From IMG/VR virus record IMGVR_UViG_3300035201_000434, positions 1 through 22,364 of that record: a stretch of DNA of 22,364 nucleotides; one strand, 5' to 3'. Positions 14,855 through 21,746 of this stretch are shown here, in pieces (position 1 is the stretch's first letter; every line of letters begins with the position of its first letter). Source of the DNA: a virus. Position numbers and translations under genes: made by a program. Below the pieces are notes generated by a model, which was not told where the DNA came from, ran no database searches, and worked only from the letters and a program-made list of their open reading frames with translations.

Positions 14855-15112
14855 TTATTCGTCGTATACTCTGCACTCTTCTGCGTCAGGATGATTATCA
14901 CAATAGACTTCTAGGTGCTTATCCTGATGTCTAGTATGCCAATCATTAATACCAGTCTCTGGTTCATCATCCTTATGATACTCATCATAATATGCATGAG
15001 CAGATTCTAAATCTGCTTTGGTGTATTCCATTTTACCATGGTTAATATGTTCCTTGCCATCTTTAGGATCAAGGTAGACTTCGTGGTCTAAATCGTGCTT
15101 AATGTCTGCCAT
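14855..15112 (-). CDS. Small His/acidic-rich protein between hub genes, 85 aa
   Basis: The frame is packed between the gp27-like and gp5-like genes with 3-nt gaps on both sides, which makes it a confident gene. The 85 residues include ten His (6, 10, 22, 25, 39, 46, 59, 62, 66, 74), about 25 Asp/Glu and two Cys (71 and 80) in CDNHPDAEEC. It has no signal peptide or membrane segment. The composition would suit metal binding or acidic contact with a basic partner; both are inferences. I do not recognise a T4 counterpart. Its place between two hub genes suggests an assembly or hub-accessory role. Confidence 0.7.
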   Translation of the reverse strand: MADIKHDLDHEVYLDPKDGKEHINHGKMEYTKADLESAHAYYDEYHKDDEPETGINDWHTRHQDKHLEVYCDNHPDAEECRVYDE

Positions 15113-16604: not shown

Positions 16605-18575
16605 TTAAGCTAGTCCACCAGAATAAAGTTTTTCATAAGCATCTGTAGAAGCCCCACCCTGACTCAAAAGAATACCAGAGGTGATCTTCAATGCTCTCTC
16701 ACTGGTTTTTTCTCCATCCCCTTCTTTTATTATCATGGGTGGACTTACAACAGTCTCTTCATAAGAAGCTTCATTACTAACTGCCTCAATTGTAGGATCA
16801 TTATTCGTTACATCTCCCATTTTCATCTCTTTTATATCCGGTGCCTTCTCCTTCTTAGGAGGGAAGAAAGATTTAACTAATAAAGGTGCTGTATTTGTTG
16901 GTAGCATCATCCATAAAAGATTTGGCACCTCCTTACCCAACAATAATGAAAGAGGTCCCATCGATACTTTCAGTCCCAATTTAGCTAAATTCCACAACTT
17001 TTGCTTCCCTGGAACCCAACTAGGGATCCAACTGGGAACCTCCTCTGGGAAATCTGGTATCTTAAACTTAGGTATTCCTTTCCAGAACCTTCCAAACCCT
17101 CCTAGCACAAAATCTTTAACTGCTGTACCTGCTTTCATAATACCCGACAAAGTATCTTTAAGTTTCTGCCCAACAGCCTCCATACCTCCACCCATTAGTA
17201 AGGTATAAAGTAAATCACCTACAAATACACCAAGAGTTTCACCGATCAAGGTTCCAAGAATAGGAATAGGTATAAAGCTTCCCAGGAATCCTCCAAGTGC
17301 AGCACCCATAGTCTTAAAGAGTGCTTGCCCAGCTGGTTCTCCTGAAAGAATAGAAACAATACCAACTACCAGAGGTCCAATGATAGGAACTCTACCAAAG
17401 AATTTAGAGAGGAATGGTTTAGCTGCCTTAAATGCACCACTAATTGCACCAGCAGACTTACCAAATATCTTTGCAACGAATCCACCAGCCTTTCCTGCTC
17501 CCTTAGCTAGAAGACCTTTACCACCCTGAAGTATTTTACCCCCAACATTTTTAACTGCTCCACCAATTACTTTTCCAGGTGCTTTGAGAAACTTTCTAGC
17601 GCCAGGTCCTATTAATCTTTTAGCACCAACCCCAATTCTTCGCGCCACTTTCCCTAGACGACCACCACTTGCCCAATTAAGTAATCTTCCTGTCTGTTTA
17701 ACAATATTAGCAGCAAATTTCCATGCACTTCTTATTGCTCCCACAGCTGCCTGAAATATTCTCTGCCCTACTAATTTCCATACTAGAAATCCATTAATAA
17801 GAGTCTTGGCAACATCACTTAACTTATCAAACCATTTCAAACCCTCTTCGCCAAAAGTATTACCTACCCATCCTCTTGCTTTATCATATAAACCATATGC
17901 GAGATCAATAGCAGTAACTAAAACATTCAATGCCCATCCCGCGAAACCTAAGATCCATGACCCCACCTTTGCTAACCCATTAATAATAGGAGCAAGTTTA
18001 TCCATCAACGGAAGTAATCTAACTGTGATAAATCCCAATAAAGTATTCAAGAAGAATGCTTTCATCTTCTCCCAGAAACTTTTGACTACCTTGGGTGCCG
18101 GGATACTAAACTTCTGTTTCTTTTTAGGTTTCTCTAACTGACCCTCTCTTGCTGCTGCTTCGGATGCTTCCTTTGCTTTTCGTGCATCCTCTCTCTGCTT
18201 TTCTTGAAGTGCAGCAGATCCTGCTAAAAGATTTTCAACCTTAATAACACTAGTCTTTATTCTTAATACTGTTCCTTCTAAATCTTGTCCTCCTCCACCA
18301 CCGGCAGCCGGAGTCTTACTAATTGCTAGTGCCGATGACTTAACTCCCCTAGGAATGATAGCACTGCTACCAGCAGGAACTATTGCTCCTCCCGTATCCC
18401 CACCTCCTCCATCACTGGGAGGTTGTTGCTGTTGTGGACGCTGTTTTCTTCCCCTAATCCTACTCGCCATCATGGCTCCACGACCAGCTACTCTTCCAGC
18501 TCCTACAGCACCCCGCGCAGCAACTTTGCCAGCACCCATCAATCCTTTTGCTACGCTTGCTAATCCTAGTGCCAT
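16605..18575 (-). CDS. Tape-measure-like tail protein, 656 aa (paralogous to the next-upstream gene)
   Basis: Residues 1-45 are Ala/Gly/Arg-rich, then a Gln/Pro/Gly linker (QRPQQQQPPSDGGGG). Residues about 105-150 form a charged helix, and a Lys-rich KPKKKQKF leads into an amphipathic/hydrophobic region (FFLNTLLGFITVRLLPLMDK near 165, then VGSWILGFAGWALNVLVTAI). A second hydrophobic stretch (about 395-465) contains VPIIGPLVVGIVSI and a Gly-rich FIPIPILGTLIGETLGVF. Such membrane-compatible helices are typical of tape-measure proteins and of T4 gp29. The layout (charged helix, basic stretch, W-x-K followed by a TLLG helix) repeats that of the 490-codon protein 4 nt upstream. At roughly 0.15 nm per residue, 656 residues would measure a tail of about 98 nm. 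The true tape measure could be this protein, its neighbour or both. Confidence 0.6.
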   Translation of the reverse strand: MALGLASVAKGLMGAGKVAARGAVGAGRVAGRGAMMASRIRGRKQRPQQQQPPSDGGGGDTGGAIVPAGSSAIIPRGVKSSALAISKTPAAGGGGGQDLEGTVLRIKTSVIKVENLLAGSAALQEKQREDARKAKEASEAAAREGQLEKPKKKQKFSIPAPKVVKSFWEKMKAFFLNTLLGFITVRLLPLMDKLAPIINGLAKVGSWILGFAGWALNVLVTAIDLAYGLYDKARGWVGNTFGEEGLKWFDKLSDVAKTLINGFLVWKLVGQRIFQAAVGAIRSAWKFAANIVKQTGRLLNWASGGRLGKVARRIGVGAKRLIGPGARKFLKAPGKVIGGAVKNVGGKILQGGKGLLAKGAGKAGGFVAKIFGKSAGAISGAFKAAKPFLSKFFGRVPIIGPLVVGIVSILSGEPAGQALFKTMGAALGGFLGSFIPIPILGTLIGETLGVFVGDLLYTLLMGGGMEAVGQKLKDTLSGIMKAGTAVKDFVLGGFGRFWKGIPKFKIPDFPEEVPSWIPSWVPGKQKLWNLAKLGLKVSMGPLSLLLGKEVPNLLWMMLPTNTAPLLVKSFFPPKKEKAPDIKEMKMGDVTNNDPTIEAVSNEASYEETVVSPPMIIKEGDGEKTSERALKITSGILLSQGGASTDAYEKLYSGGLA

Positions 18576-18579
18576 AATC

Positions 18580-20052
18580 TTATACGGTTATACCTAGGGT
18601 TTTAATCTTATAAGGTGATACCATAGTATCAGCAGAAAAATCTGGGATATCAGATCCCGGTGATTTAATTGCCTTTGCTTTTGCATTTTTGGCAGCGCCA
18701 TCTGCTTGCATCAAGGTCACTCCACGTCCCGCAGAAGGAGGAGATACCTCTCCAGGACCACTCTGAGAAGAAGATAATTTTATAGTCATCGTACTATCAC
18801 CACTGGAAGCGGTTACTGCGCCTCCACCAGCGTATCCTTTAACCACCATGGGTTTGTTTATATAACCACCCCCACGATATCCTTTAAGATTAAAATTATT
18901 AGTAGTAGATTGAAGAACAGAACCACCTCCCCTATACTGATTCATTATACTCGGCCGATTAGTTCCCCCACCAGCAGCATTCATTGAAGCAAGAGTACTT
19001 GCACCCCATTTACTCACCGCACCTTTACTCATAACAAACTCACCAGGAGTTAACATAGCAGGAACTGTATCTCTATTACCTGAACCAGGAACTTGTCCAC
19101 CCTGTGCAAACTCAGTGGGTGGTTCTTCAAGTTTAGAAGCATCTTGTTTAAGATTTTCTCCCATTTGTAGATCTACACCCTTAGGAAGATCTTCTTCACC
19201 TTCTTTTATTCCACCCTGTCTCGCATCTTGACGACTAACTCCACTAGGGGTCGTCTTCGTATCTATTTTATTATCACCCCCCGGACCTCCTTTAAGGAAC
19301 GCAAATATTTTTCCCGGTAACTCCCAAATAAATTTTGCTACATCTACAATTTTAGGAACACCCCAAGCTAATAAAGCAACCAATCCTACTGCAGATAAAA
19401 TTCCTGGTCCCAAGAATAACATCAGTCCAGCAACCAAAGCAGGCCACCAATCCTTTAAGAACCTAAACAAACTACTAATCTTCTCAGCATTCTTACCATC
19501 ACTAAACCACTCAATAAATTTAATAACTACTCTTCCTAATAAAACAGTGGTTATAAAATTAATTAACTTATCCCATATACTTTGTATAGGTTTCATTATC
19601 TTCTGACCCACCTTTTTCAGACCAGAAAATGTTTTAGTTTCTAATCCCTTCTCTCTACCTTTTGCTTCTTTTTCCTCTCCAGCAACCCGTGCATCTGCTG
19701 CTGCATCTTTCTGGGCATCTGCCTGACCTTTTAATATTCCTACAATATTATCCACCGAAGCAGCAATTGCCTGTACTGCATTCAGTAAAGCAGGAGATGC
19801 AACAGGTGACTGACTTATAGTATCCGCTTGTTGTATTGCTCCTGGTTTCCCTGCTTTAACCAGGGCACCTCCTTTACCATCATCTTTTCTCATAGCCAGT
19901 GCACCATTTACTGCACTACCTTTCTTAAAATCAGCTCCACTTATCCTTCTCTTCCTGAATATTGCCTTCCTCTCACCAGCCGACAGATACTCACCCTGAT
20001 CAGTAGTACCAGTGCTCCATAGTGGTTCAGTTGGAAGTAATTTACTTGGCAT
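18580..20052 (-). CDS. Tape-measure-like tail protein with C-terminal TPGEFVM motif, 490 aa
   Basis: The charged helical segment at about residues 90-150 (rich in Ala, Glu and Lys) precedes a hydrophobic region near 200-245 (LVAGLMLFLGPGIL, LVALLAWGVPKIVDVAKFIW). Around residues 314-364 lies a hallmark of phage tail tape measures: GGQVPGSGNRDTVPAMLTPG followed by EFVMSKGAV. Glycine-rich repeats follow (YRGGGSVLQS, YRGGGYINKP, YAGGGAV). It starts inside the last codons of the 61-codon frame (11-nt overlap), so translation is coupled. It sits directly after the chaperone-like pair, as tape measures do in lambda-type clusters. Its relation to T4 gp29 is not clear from sequence alone. The 656-codon gene 4 nt downstream looks paralogous. 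Confidence 0.65.
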   Translation of the reverse strand: MPSKLLPTEPLWSTGTTDQGEYLSAGERKAIFRKRRISGADFKKGSAVNGALAMRKDDGKGGALVKAGKPGAIQQADTISQSPVASPALLNAVQAIAASVDNIVGILKGQADAQKDAAADARVAGEEKEAKGREKGLETKTFSGLKKVGQKIMKPIQSIWDKLINFITTVLLGRVVIKFIEWFSDGKNAEKISSLFRFLKDWWPALVAGLMLFLGPGILSAVGLVALLAWGVPKIVDVAKFIWELPGKIFAFLKGGPGGDNKIDTKTTPSGVSRQDARQGGIKEGEEDLPKGVDLQMGENLKQDASKLEEPPTEFAQGGQVPGSGNRDTVPAMLTPGEFVMSKGAVSKWGASTLASMNAAGGGTNRPSIMNQYRGGGSVLQSTTNNFNLKGYRGGGYINKPMVVKGYAGGGAVTASSGDSTMTIKLSSSQSGPGEVSPPSAGRGVTLMQADGAAKNAKAKAIKSPGSDIPDFSADTMVSPYKIKTLGITV

Positions 20053-20227
20053 TCGCCTGTTCTTGTTTGCGTTTTAGTTCTTCTTCCTCAAGGTGTGCTT
20101 GAAGGAGACCCACATAGATGTCTCGTTCCCAAGGCATCATATTTTCTATCTCTGTTAAGCTATATTTATGGTACTGCATCAACGCAAAATTTAACCTAAA
20201 GTAAGACTCTAGGTTCATGTGTACCAT
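20042..20227 (-). CDS. Small frame after gp26-like gene; predicted T-like extension reached by -1 frameshift, 61 aa
   Basis: The frame encodes a compact acidic/helical protein: MVHMNLESYFRLNFALMQYH, then SLTEIENMMPWERDIYVGLL, ending in a Lys/Glu/Gln-rich tail. The aromatic LNFALMQYHKYSLTEIENM plus PWERD core resembles the T part of lambda-type GT tail assembly chaperones (pattern only). It could be translated alone from the ATG at 20227, but no Shine-Dalgarno lies at a useful distance. The frame is open upstream as far as the slippery heptamer at 20236-20242, with codons CGC GTA GCG joining it to the gp26-like frame. A -1 slip there would give a 302-residue fusion (238 + Arg-Val-Ala + 61). 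In T4 the corresponding map position holds gp51, a hub assembly factor; homology is not established here. Confidence 0.7.
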   Translation of the reverse strand: MVHMNLESYFRLNFALMQYHKYSLTEIENMMPWERDIYVGLLQAHLEEEELKRKQEQANAK

Positions 20228-20229
20228 CG

Positions 20230-20949
20230 CTACGCGAAAAAAGACGCTAAGCCCTCCAGTACCACTTCACTTTCTACTTTTGTCTTGGGATTGGTTACCT
20301 TAATAGTATGAGATAATTTAGGCATAGTCTCAAAGAAAGTTTCAATCTCTTTAAATTGTGAAGAGTTCATCGACTCCAGAAAATCATTCACTTCCTTTTT
20401 AGTACAGTCTGCAGTTGCCCATACCTCATCCTCATTATAAATTTTATCAATACAAGTAGCAATCAATTCAAATGATTGATCCATTTGATTCTTTTCATCA
20501 AAATCAAAATTGTTTTTAATGAATTGTTCCAAAGATGGATACTTCATCTCCATCATTAGATTTTCATCCAGTTTTATTTGTTTGGTATGCTTCTCATCTT
20601 TCTCAATCTGAATATCATCTAGATTGATAGTAGCTTTAACCTGAGTCTCTTCATCGTCAGGACAAATAACATTCACTTCCAACTCTTCACCAACAGACTT
20701 ACCCCTAATGTTAAGGAAGAGGTATTCAATATCAAAGGTAGGAAGATGTTCTACTTTAACCCCTCTGGTCTGAATACAACTCTTCAGTACTGCTTTAATC
20801 GCATTTGTAATCTGCTTATTATCTTCACTCTCTAAAGCGATTACAAGAACCTTCTCTTCTTTAACTAAGAAAGGTCTATATTTAACAGTCTGTCCGCTGG
20901 ACGGCAACTCCAACTCATAGGTCGGAGTACTAATTTTTGGTAAAGGCAT
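20230..20949 (-). CDS. 26: gp26-like baseplate hub assembly protein (G-like partner of frameshift product), 239 aa
   Basis: The N-terminus (YELELPSSGQTVKYRPFLVK, then EEKVLVIALESEDNKQI) and the later FDIEYLFLNIRGKSVGEELE fit the gp26 baseplate hub family of T4-like phages (T4 gp26 is 208 aa). An acidic strand region follows and then an alpha-helical second half (about 130-239). Two Cys in the middle (VICPDDEETQ and a Cys near residue 52) do not form an obvious CxxC zinc site. AGGA sits 6 nt ahead of the ATG. The last codons are GCG TCT TTT TTC GCG TAG, and the slippery T_TTT_TTC within them should divert some ribosomes into the next frame. Like lambda gpG, this protein would then exist alone and as the N-terminus of a longer fusion that acts on the tape measure. 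Confidence 0.75.
   Translation of the reverse strand: MPLPKISTPTYELELPSSGQTVKYRPFLVKEEKVLVIALESEDNKQITNAIKAVLKSCIQTRGVKVEHLPTFDIEYLFLNIRGKSVGEELEVNVICPDDEETQVKATINLDDIQIEKDEKHTKQIKLDENLMMEMKYPSLEQFIKNNFDFDEKNQMDQSFELIATCIDKIYNEDEVWATADCTKKEVNDFLESMNSSQFKEIETFFETMPKLSHTIKVTNPKTKVESEVVLEGLASFFA
20236..20242 (-). other. Programmed -1 frameshift slippery heptamer T_TTT_TTC
   Basis: In the gp26-like frame the codons are TCT TTT TTC GCG TAG, so the last T of TCT plus TTT TTC forms the canonical X_XXY_YYZ heptamer with X=Y=T and Z=C. After a -1 slip the reading continues CGC GTA GCG ATG GTA CAT, which is in phase with the 61-codon frame and has no stop in between. The zero-frame stop is two codons further on. 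The fusion would be 302 residues long. Confidence 0.75.
20252..20257 (-). promoter_or_regulatory. Shine-Dalgarno-like GGAGGG upstream of the slippery site
   Basis: GGAGGG, within CTG GAG GGC of the gp26-like gene, lies with its GGAGG core 10 nt before the heptamer. This is the spacing known for the stimulatory element of the E. coli dnaX -1 frameshift. It is 25 nt from the ATG at 20227, too far to start translation there, so a frameshift-stimulating role fits better than initiation. Confidence 0.6.
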
Positions 20950-20978: not shown

Positions 20979-21746
20979 TTAGAAGAGTCTATCCAGTAAA
21001 TTTCCAGCAACATTCCCTGCGACATCGCCAAGGAAATTATTACCTGTAAATCTAGTAACAGCAGCATCCGCAAGGTTAGCACCAATATTAGTGAGTGCAT
21101 TACTATTAAAGACTGACTGCGAGAAAGGATCAAAAACATCAAGAATAGATGGTCTAGACCATGCACCAAATCCTCCACCCGGTTTTACCACATAACGAAT
21201 ATAAGTTAAAGACACATTACATTTTAACAAACTAGATGCATCATAAGAAACTGGCATAGATGTTATCGCTATGGGATAACTCTTTACAAATTCATATTCC
21301 AATTGTTGTTTATGATCTTTTTCAAACTTCTTAACTTTTAATCCGGTAGAAGTATATTCATCAGGATATCTCATTCTATAGGAATAATTTTCATTTAATG
21401 CATCATTAGAATTCTCATTAACAATATATGAAATCCATGCTTCAAAGAATCTAATAGGAACATAATCTTCAGCATCAACATAAAAACTTAGATCAATACG
21501 ATCATCAAACATTCTACGGTATGCATGTCTCTCTGTGACACCCGTAAAATCATTATTCATCTCAGTCGTTGCCAGTTGAGAACCGGGAAGGACTGCTTCG
21601 GAACACATCAATTGTAACTTGTCTGTTCTAGCACCCAATTGACGACGCAAATCATTAGGAATACCTAACTCCACTTCAAAAGCAGAAGTTAAAGCAGGTC
21701 TTAAGAGATTTGCTTTGATGTTTGAGACTGATCTTACTGTAGGCAT
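20979..21746 (-). CDS. Tail-tube-fold baseplate protein (gp48/gp54 type), 255 aa
   Basis: The layout matches the tail tube family to which T4 gp19, gp48 and gp54 belong. An N-terminal strand region includes LQLMCSEAVLPGSQLATTEM. A core follows with RMFDDRIDLSFYVDAEDYVP and the helix RFFEAWISYIV. Then come the strand VKSYPIAITSMPVSYDASSL and CNVSLTYIRYVVKPG. The C-terminus (about 205-255) is Ala/Asn/Gly-rich, as in proteins of this group that contact the hub or tape measure. In T4, gp48 and gp54 cap the baseplate and start the tail tube; which one this is cannot be told here, so no gene number is given. It is the first gene of the leftward unit, 29 nt ahead of the gp26-like gene. The ATG overlaps an AT-rich palindrome and lacks a good ribosome binding site. 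Confidence 0.65.
   Translation of the reverse strand: MPTVRSVSNIKANLLRPALTSAFEVELGIPNDLRRQLGARTDKLQLMCSEAVLPGSQLATTEMNNDFTGVTERHAYRRMFDDRIDLSFYVDAEDYVPIRFFEAWISYIVNENSNDALNENYSYRMRYPDEYTSTGLKVKKFEKDHKQQLEYEFVKSYPIAITSMPVSYDASSLLKCNVSLTYIRYVVKPGGGFGAWSRPSILDVFDPFSQSVFNSNALTNIGANLADAAVTRFTGNNFLGDVAGNVAGNLLDRLF

Follow-up and report, generated by a model that had tools for sequence, protein, structure and literature searches.

The gp26-like gene of this marine T4-like phage and the small 'gp51' open reading frame (ORF) that follows it are very probably a single tail assembly chaperone gene, from which two forms of the protein are produced by a −1 slip of the ribosome. Both lie on the minus strand of the window, the 22,364-nucleotide stretch of viral DNA analysed here (IMG/VR record IMGVR_UViG_3300035201_000434). 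The gp26-like gene (20230..20949) encodes 239 amino acids and is the candidate short chaperone (TAC-N), the analogue of lambda gpG, while the −1-frame extension (20042..20236; 64 codons and a stop, RVAMVHMNLES...NAK) is the candidate TAC-C domain, the analogue of lambda gpT. The majority of ribosomes would terminate at the zero-frame stop TAG (20230..20232) to give the 239-aa short form, and a minority would slip back one base at the slippery heptamer T_TTT_TTC to give a predicted long form of 302 amino acids (TAC-NC), made up of residues 1–238 and 64 new residues. The gene model is built on conservation of the signal, the open −1 frame, relatives that lack a start codon, an extension homologous to the C-terminus of T4 gp51, and an N-terminal fold like that of a solved chaperone; we infer from it that slipping takes place in the cell, and likewise its rate and the binding partners of the two forms.

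At the end of the gp26-like gene, the minus strand reads CTG GAG GGC TTA GCG TCT TTT TTC GCG TAG CG ATG GTA CAC. The heptamer (20236..20242, minus strand) stands in the phase of gp26, as the initial annotation had recognized. The same annotation placed it two codons before the stop; a single sense codon, GCG, separates it from the TAG (20232–20230). Past the heptamer the −1 frame continues as F-F-R-V-A-M-V-H-M-N... and enters the 61-aa ORF (20227–20042), whose frame is −1 to that of the gp26-like gene; the earlier claim that this path is free of stops is borne out by the minus-strand reading. Chance is excluded as the origin of the heptamer, because it is both unique and invariant: the main minus-strand genes of the window, 6,766 codons in all, contain one in-phase T_TTT_TTY, and the junction Phe-Phe (residues 237–238) is encoded by T_TTT_TTY in 193/193 aligned class orthologues, compared with only 4/174 loci for an internal control, the conserved Phe-Phe at residues 205–206.

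Orthologues were collected from IMG/VR as a near set of 80 sequences (72–87% identical) and by six further clade-wise scans, five of which gave 11, 2, 10, 78 and 80 loci and the sixth none; gp26-like matches occur in 752 GenBank phage records. All 80 near orthologues show the same heptamer in the same phase, with the second ORF in the −1 frame wherever it is readable, and an in-phase T_TTT_TTY is found in 254 of the 267 loci with a readable end. The remaining 13 comprise ten T4-type gp51 genes, the T4-type gp26 of KMB20, Vibrio phage K469 and contig L095. The ten gp51 genes are already fused, one of them ending with an unrelated AAACCCA match. Contig L095 carries a gp26 that is 99% identical to that of HTVC008M, but its 3′ end departs from those of near-identical relatives and lacks the heptamer; it was set aside as possibly misassembled. 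The frameshift hypothesis survived the inspection of orthologues for a missing heptamer or for a −1-frame stop ahead of the downstream ORF: T_TTT_TTY is in phase at 197/197 distinct frameshift-class junctions from IMG/VR and GenBank, a set selected by presence of the heptamer, so that its universality is judged from the 13 exceptions, and the −1 frame is open for 56–73 codons in 195/195 complete junctions. Eight kinds of codon precede the heptamer at the 197 junctions (TCT, AGT, AAT, GAT, GCT, GGT, ACT and CAT), all of them ending in T. T_TTT_TTC or T_TTT_TTT is also present in phages of Pelagibacter, Methylophilales, Sinorhizobium, Stenotrophomonas, Pseudomonas, Aeromonas and Vibrio (VH7D). 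The very distant gp26 homologue of Agrobacterium jumbo phage Atu_ph07 ends CAT TTT TTC GCA TGA with an open −1 frame, and the mechanism may therefore extend to jumbo phages.

The small ORF has matches in two families, phrog_634 ('baseplate hub assembly catalyst') and phrog_150, in the latter at positions 241–280, so some phrog_150 members hold both parts in one chain. Through these families, the extension is a homologue of the part that T4 gp51 has at its C-terminus beyond the gp26 domain. Could the 61-aa ORF nevertheless be a gene in its own right, translated by reinitiation? Its ATG (20225..20227, minus strand) comes two bases after the gp26 stop TAG, and Vibrio phage relatives without the heptamer have a TAATG overlap at which reinitiation may operate. 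We regard this as highly improbable for the window, where the ATG looks like an optional or accidental start. The position of the start varies among relatives, and 44 of the 195 complete distinct loci have no ATG, GTG or TTG among the 12 codons that follow the slip site, even though the protein sequence is conserved over those codons. Furthermore, the Shine–Dalgarno-like (SD-like) sequence GGAGGG is ~24 nt from the ATG and thus beyond the normal distance, the heptamer is invariant, and in T4 gp51 the same domain is fused at the C-terminus.

Translation of the extension by frameshifting also fits the way in which these genes have been annotated. The annotated gp51 or small ORF starts 32–89 nt past the gp26 stop in HTVC008M, P-HM2, Aeromonas phage 65 and Milchi, and the −1 frame is open across this gap. 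In T4-like phages of GenBank, loci L083, L087 and L091 among them, the annotated starts fall well inside the open frame. Such late starts were probably chosen because annotators required a start codon, and the entries look truncated. Compared with other gp51 proteins, that of cyanophages was noted to be missing its first ~200 residues (Sullivan et al. 2010, PMC3037559), which would be explained if gp26 supplies those residues through frameshifting.

Two elements flanking the heptamer are possible stimulators of slippage. Upstream, the SD-like GGAGGG (20252..20257, minus strand) lies 9 nt before the heptamer. Almost all near relatives encode the Glu-Gly pair at this site as GAG GGN or GAA GGG, while GGG is rare elsewhere in the gp26-like gene (65/1,186 Gly codons), and pairing with the anti-SD sequence exceeds that of synonymous shuffles in both the near and far sets (mean z about −1.0; control windows, +0.2). 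Downstream, a 10-bp RNA hairpin is predicted at 20193..20215 (minus strand), beginning 20 nt past the heptamer, which is farther than usual for a stimulator. RNA structure just past the slip site exceeds that of synonymous-codon shuffles, with a mean z in 12-codon windows of −2.3 for the near set and −1.5 for the far set, against −0.3 to −0.8 in control windows within gp26; the excess is mostly gone from about codon 9, the one exception being the codon-30 window of the near set (−1.2). The downstream hairpin differs among relatives and, given that the pairings vary between clades, the evidence for RNA structure is moderate. A single shared hairpin, GGTCC-ATAT-GGACC and its variants, was considered and rejected: the window has it in disrupted form and other relatives lack it, although in the near clade 46 loci form 5 bp of this type versus ~30 under codon-permutation nulls. 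Both the SD-like element and, on this moderate evidence, downstream structure are favoured beyond coding needs, and the two probably increase the slip rate.

The flanking signals also bear on whether the fusion is made at the level of transcription. A six-T run is present in every class locus, with seven T in a few, and RNA polymerase slipping on it could in principle shift the frame. RNA polymerase slippage usually needs runs longer than this, however, and most loci have exactly six T; moreover, SD-like and RNA-structure signals on either side of the T run fit ribosomes. Polymerase slippage is therefore exceedingly improbable, and ribosomal slippage is retained as the source of the long form.

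The gp26-like protein belongs to the PF12322 family (E=1.9e-77) and to phrog_150 (E=2.4e-81). Its PF12322 score of 260 bits is above those of T4 gp26 (216) and T4 gp51 (178), and all three exceed the curated cut-off of 24.5. An AlphaFold model of gp26 was built from 64 sequences (pLDDT 86, pTM 0.78). In a Foldseek search of the PDB, HK97 gp13 ranked first for this model at an E of 0.65, which is not significant; a second structure comparison against the PDB gave 2ob9 (HK97 gp13) with Z 7.8, then 3fgx and 3klu (YqbN) with 7.7 and 7.2, the next match being at 4.8. The three matches span gp26 residues 1–96, and YqbN is a phage-derived protein of chaperone type. The modelled N-terminal domain of gp26 thus resembles the tail assembly chaperone HK97 gp13 over 84 residues at 11% identity, a likeness whose Z below 8 alone is no proof, while gp26 has an additional C-terminal half without a clear match. 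A sequence-profile search of the PDB found no chaperone, and Foldseek of a T4-like gp51 model against the PDB gave no meaningful match.

The genes on either side are those expected of a lambda-like arrangement. Upstream of the chaperone gene lies the tail tube protein (20979..21746, minus strand; phrog_45, E=3.5e-37, and PF23849). Directly downstream, and overlapping the extension by 11 nt, is a 490-aa tape-measure-like protein (18580..20052, minus strand) with weak matches to several tape-measure PHROGs, followed by a second tape-measure-like protein of 656 amino acids (16605..18575, minus strand; phrog_35997 and, weakly, the tape-measure family phrog_167). In HTVC008M, a gene slightly further down is annotated as a putative tail tape measure. 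The order is hence tail tube, chaperone, tape-measure-like gene, in which the first assignment is clear and the last relies on weak matches and the HTVC008M annotation. The tail cluster also holds an 85-aa ORF (14855–15112, minus strand) with a match (E=1e-7) to the C-terminal portion of the CP12 domain (PF02672); CP12 is a carbon-fixation regulator known as a cyanophage metabolic gene.

This gene order and the fold likeness to HK97 gp13 support the comparison with lambda G/GT drawn in the initial annotation. By analogy with lambda gpG/gpGT, the domain shared by both forms would coat the tape-measure protein and the extra domain would recruit the tail tube protein. The slippery site of lambda is GGGAAAG, whereas the window has T_TTT_TTC; the window phage further differs from lambda in having a contractile T4-like tail and a chaperone of the PF12322 family.

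T4 itself reaches the same two forms by a different route. Of the two T4 proteins that match PF12322, gp26 (208 aa; 8.8e-64) and gp51 (249 aa; 3.9e-52), only the latter has the extra C-terminal part; this part aligns with phrog_150 up to position 280 and also matches phrog_634. Judged by sequence, the two proteins are paralogues, gp51 being the gp26 domain plus the extension, so that T4 would obtain its two forms from two genes. T4 genes 26 and 51 thus share with the window a homologous chaperone domain and the same extension but are divergent neighbours that use no frameshift. In an unrooted tree of 53 sequences, each T4 group branches separately from the frameshift proteins as a well-supported clade. 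The 22-kb window record, itself a fragment, gave one gp26-type match in a single-sequence search, which could overlook a distant paralogue. The suggestion that T4-type and lambda-type chaperones share one mechanism accordingly cannot be carried over to T4 itself, with its paralogous genes 26 and 51.

A further arrangement is found in five Vibrio phages that lack the heptamer: K469, 1.255.O, D509, 207E48.1 and SD25 (three classed as Ackermannviridae and two unclassified). In 5/5 the gp26 stop overlaps the −1-frame ATG as TAATG, and the −1 frame is still that of the extension; it is possible that frameshifting was lost in this group in favour of reinitiation. A search of viral_contigs for relatives of the K469 protein found none. 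Tentatively, T4-like and related phages may have at least three interchangeable routes to a long chaperone (a stimulated frameshift cassette, duplication in the T4 group and a stop–start overlap in the Vibrio group), of which the stimulators and the third route may be undescribed; we hold this broader scheme to be possible and rather doubtful.

Vladimirov and colleagues reportedly found frameshifting to be conserved in several T4-like groups, with T4 using genes 26 and 51. Earlier, G–T frameshifting was described as conserved among long-tailed phages except T4 (Atkins et al. 2016, PMC5009743). The work of Vladimirov, Gautam and Davidson (2022, Virology 566:9–15) is cited for poly-T slippery sites within the TAC-N genes of T4-like phages (PMC12846349); a second citing paper refers to it for T4-like phages, some but not all, in which the short and long forms are separate genes (PMC10885494). 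The initial annotation knew of no description of this arrangement in T4-type gp26/gp51 clusters; as far as the 2022 study is represented in the papers that cite it, T4-like chaperones of the same gp26/gp51 family as in the window were identified there, and the finding is therefore already known in outline. Set against that work as so represented, the present analysis contributes ~200 junctions from the environment, a codon control internal to the gene, and evidence for an SD-like element and RNA structure, with overlap possible; the details of the stimulators may be new.

The short 'gp51' annotated in marine T4-like phages is probably no standalone gene, and a correction of its annotation would reach hundreds of deposited phage genomes. 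The finding connects the hub chaperones of T4 with tail-length control of the lambda type.
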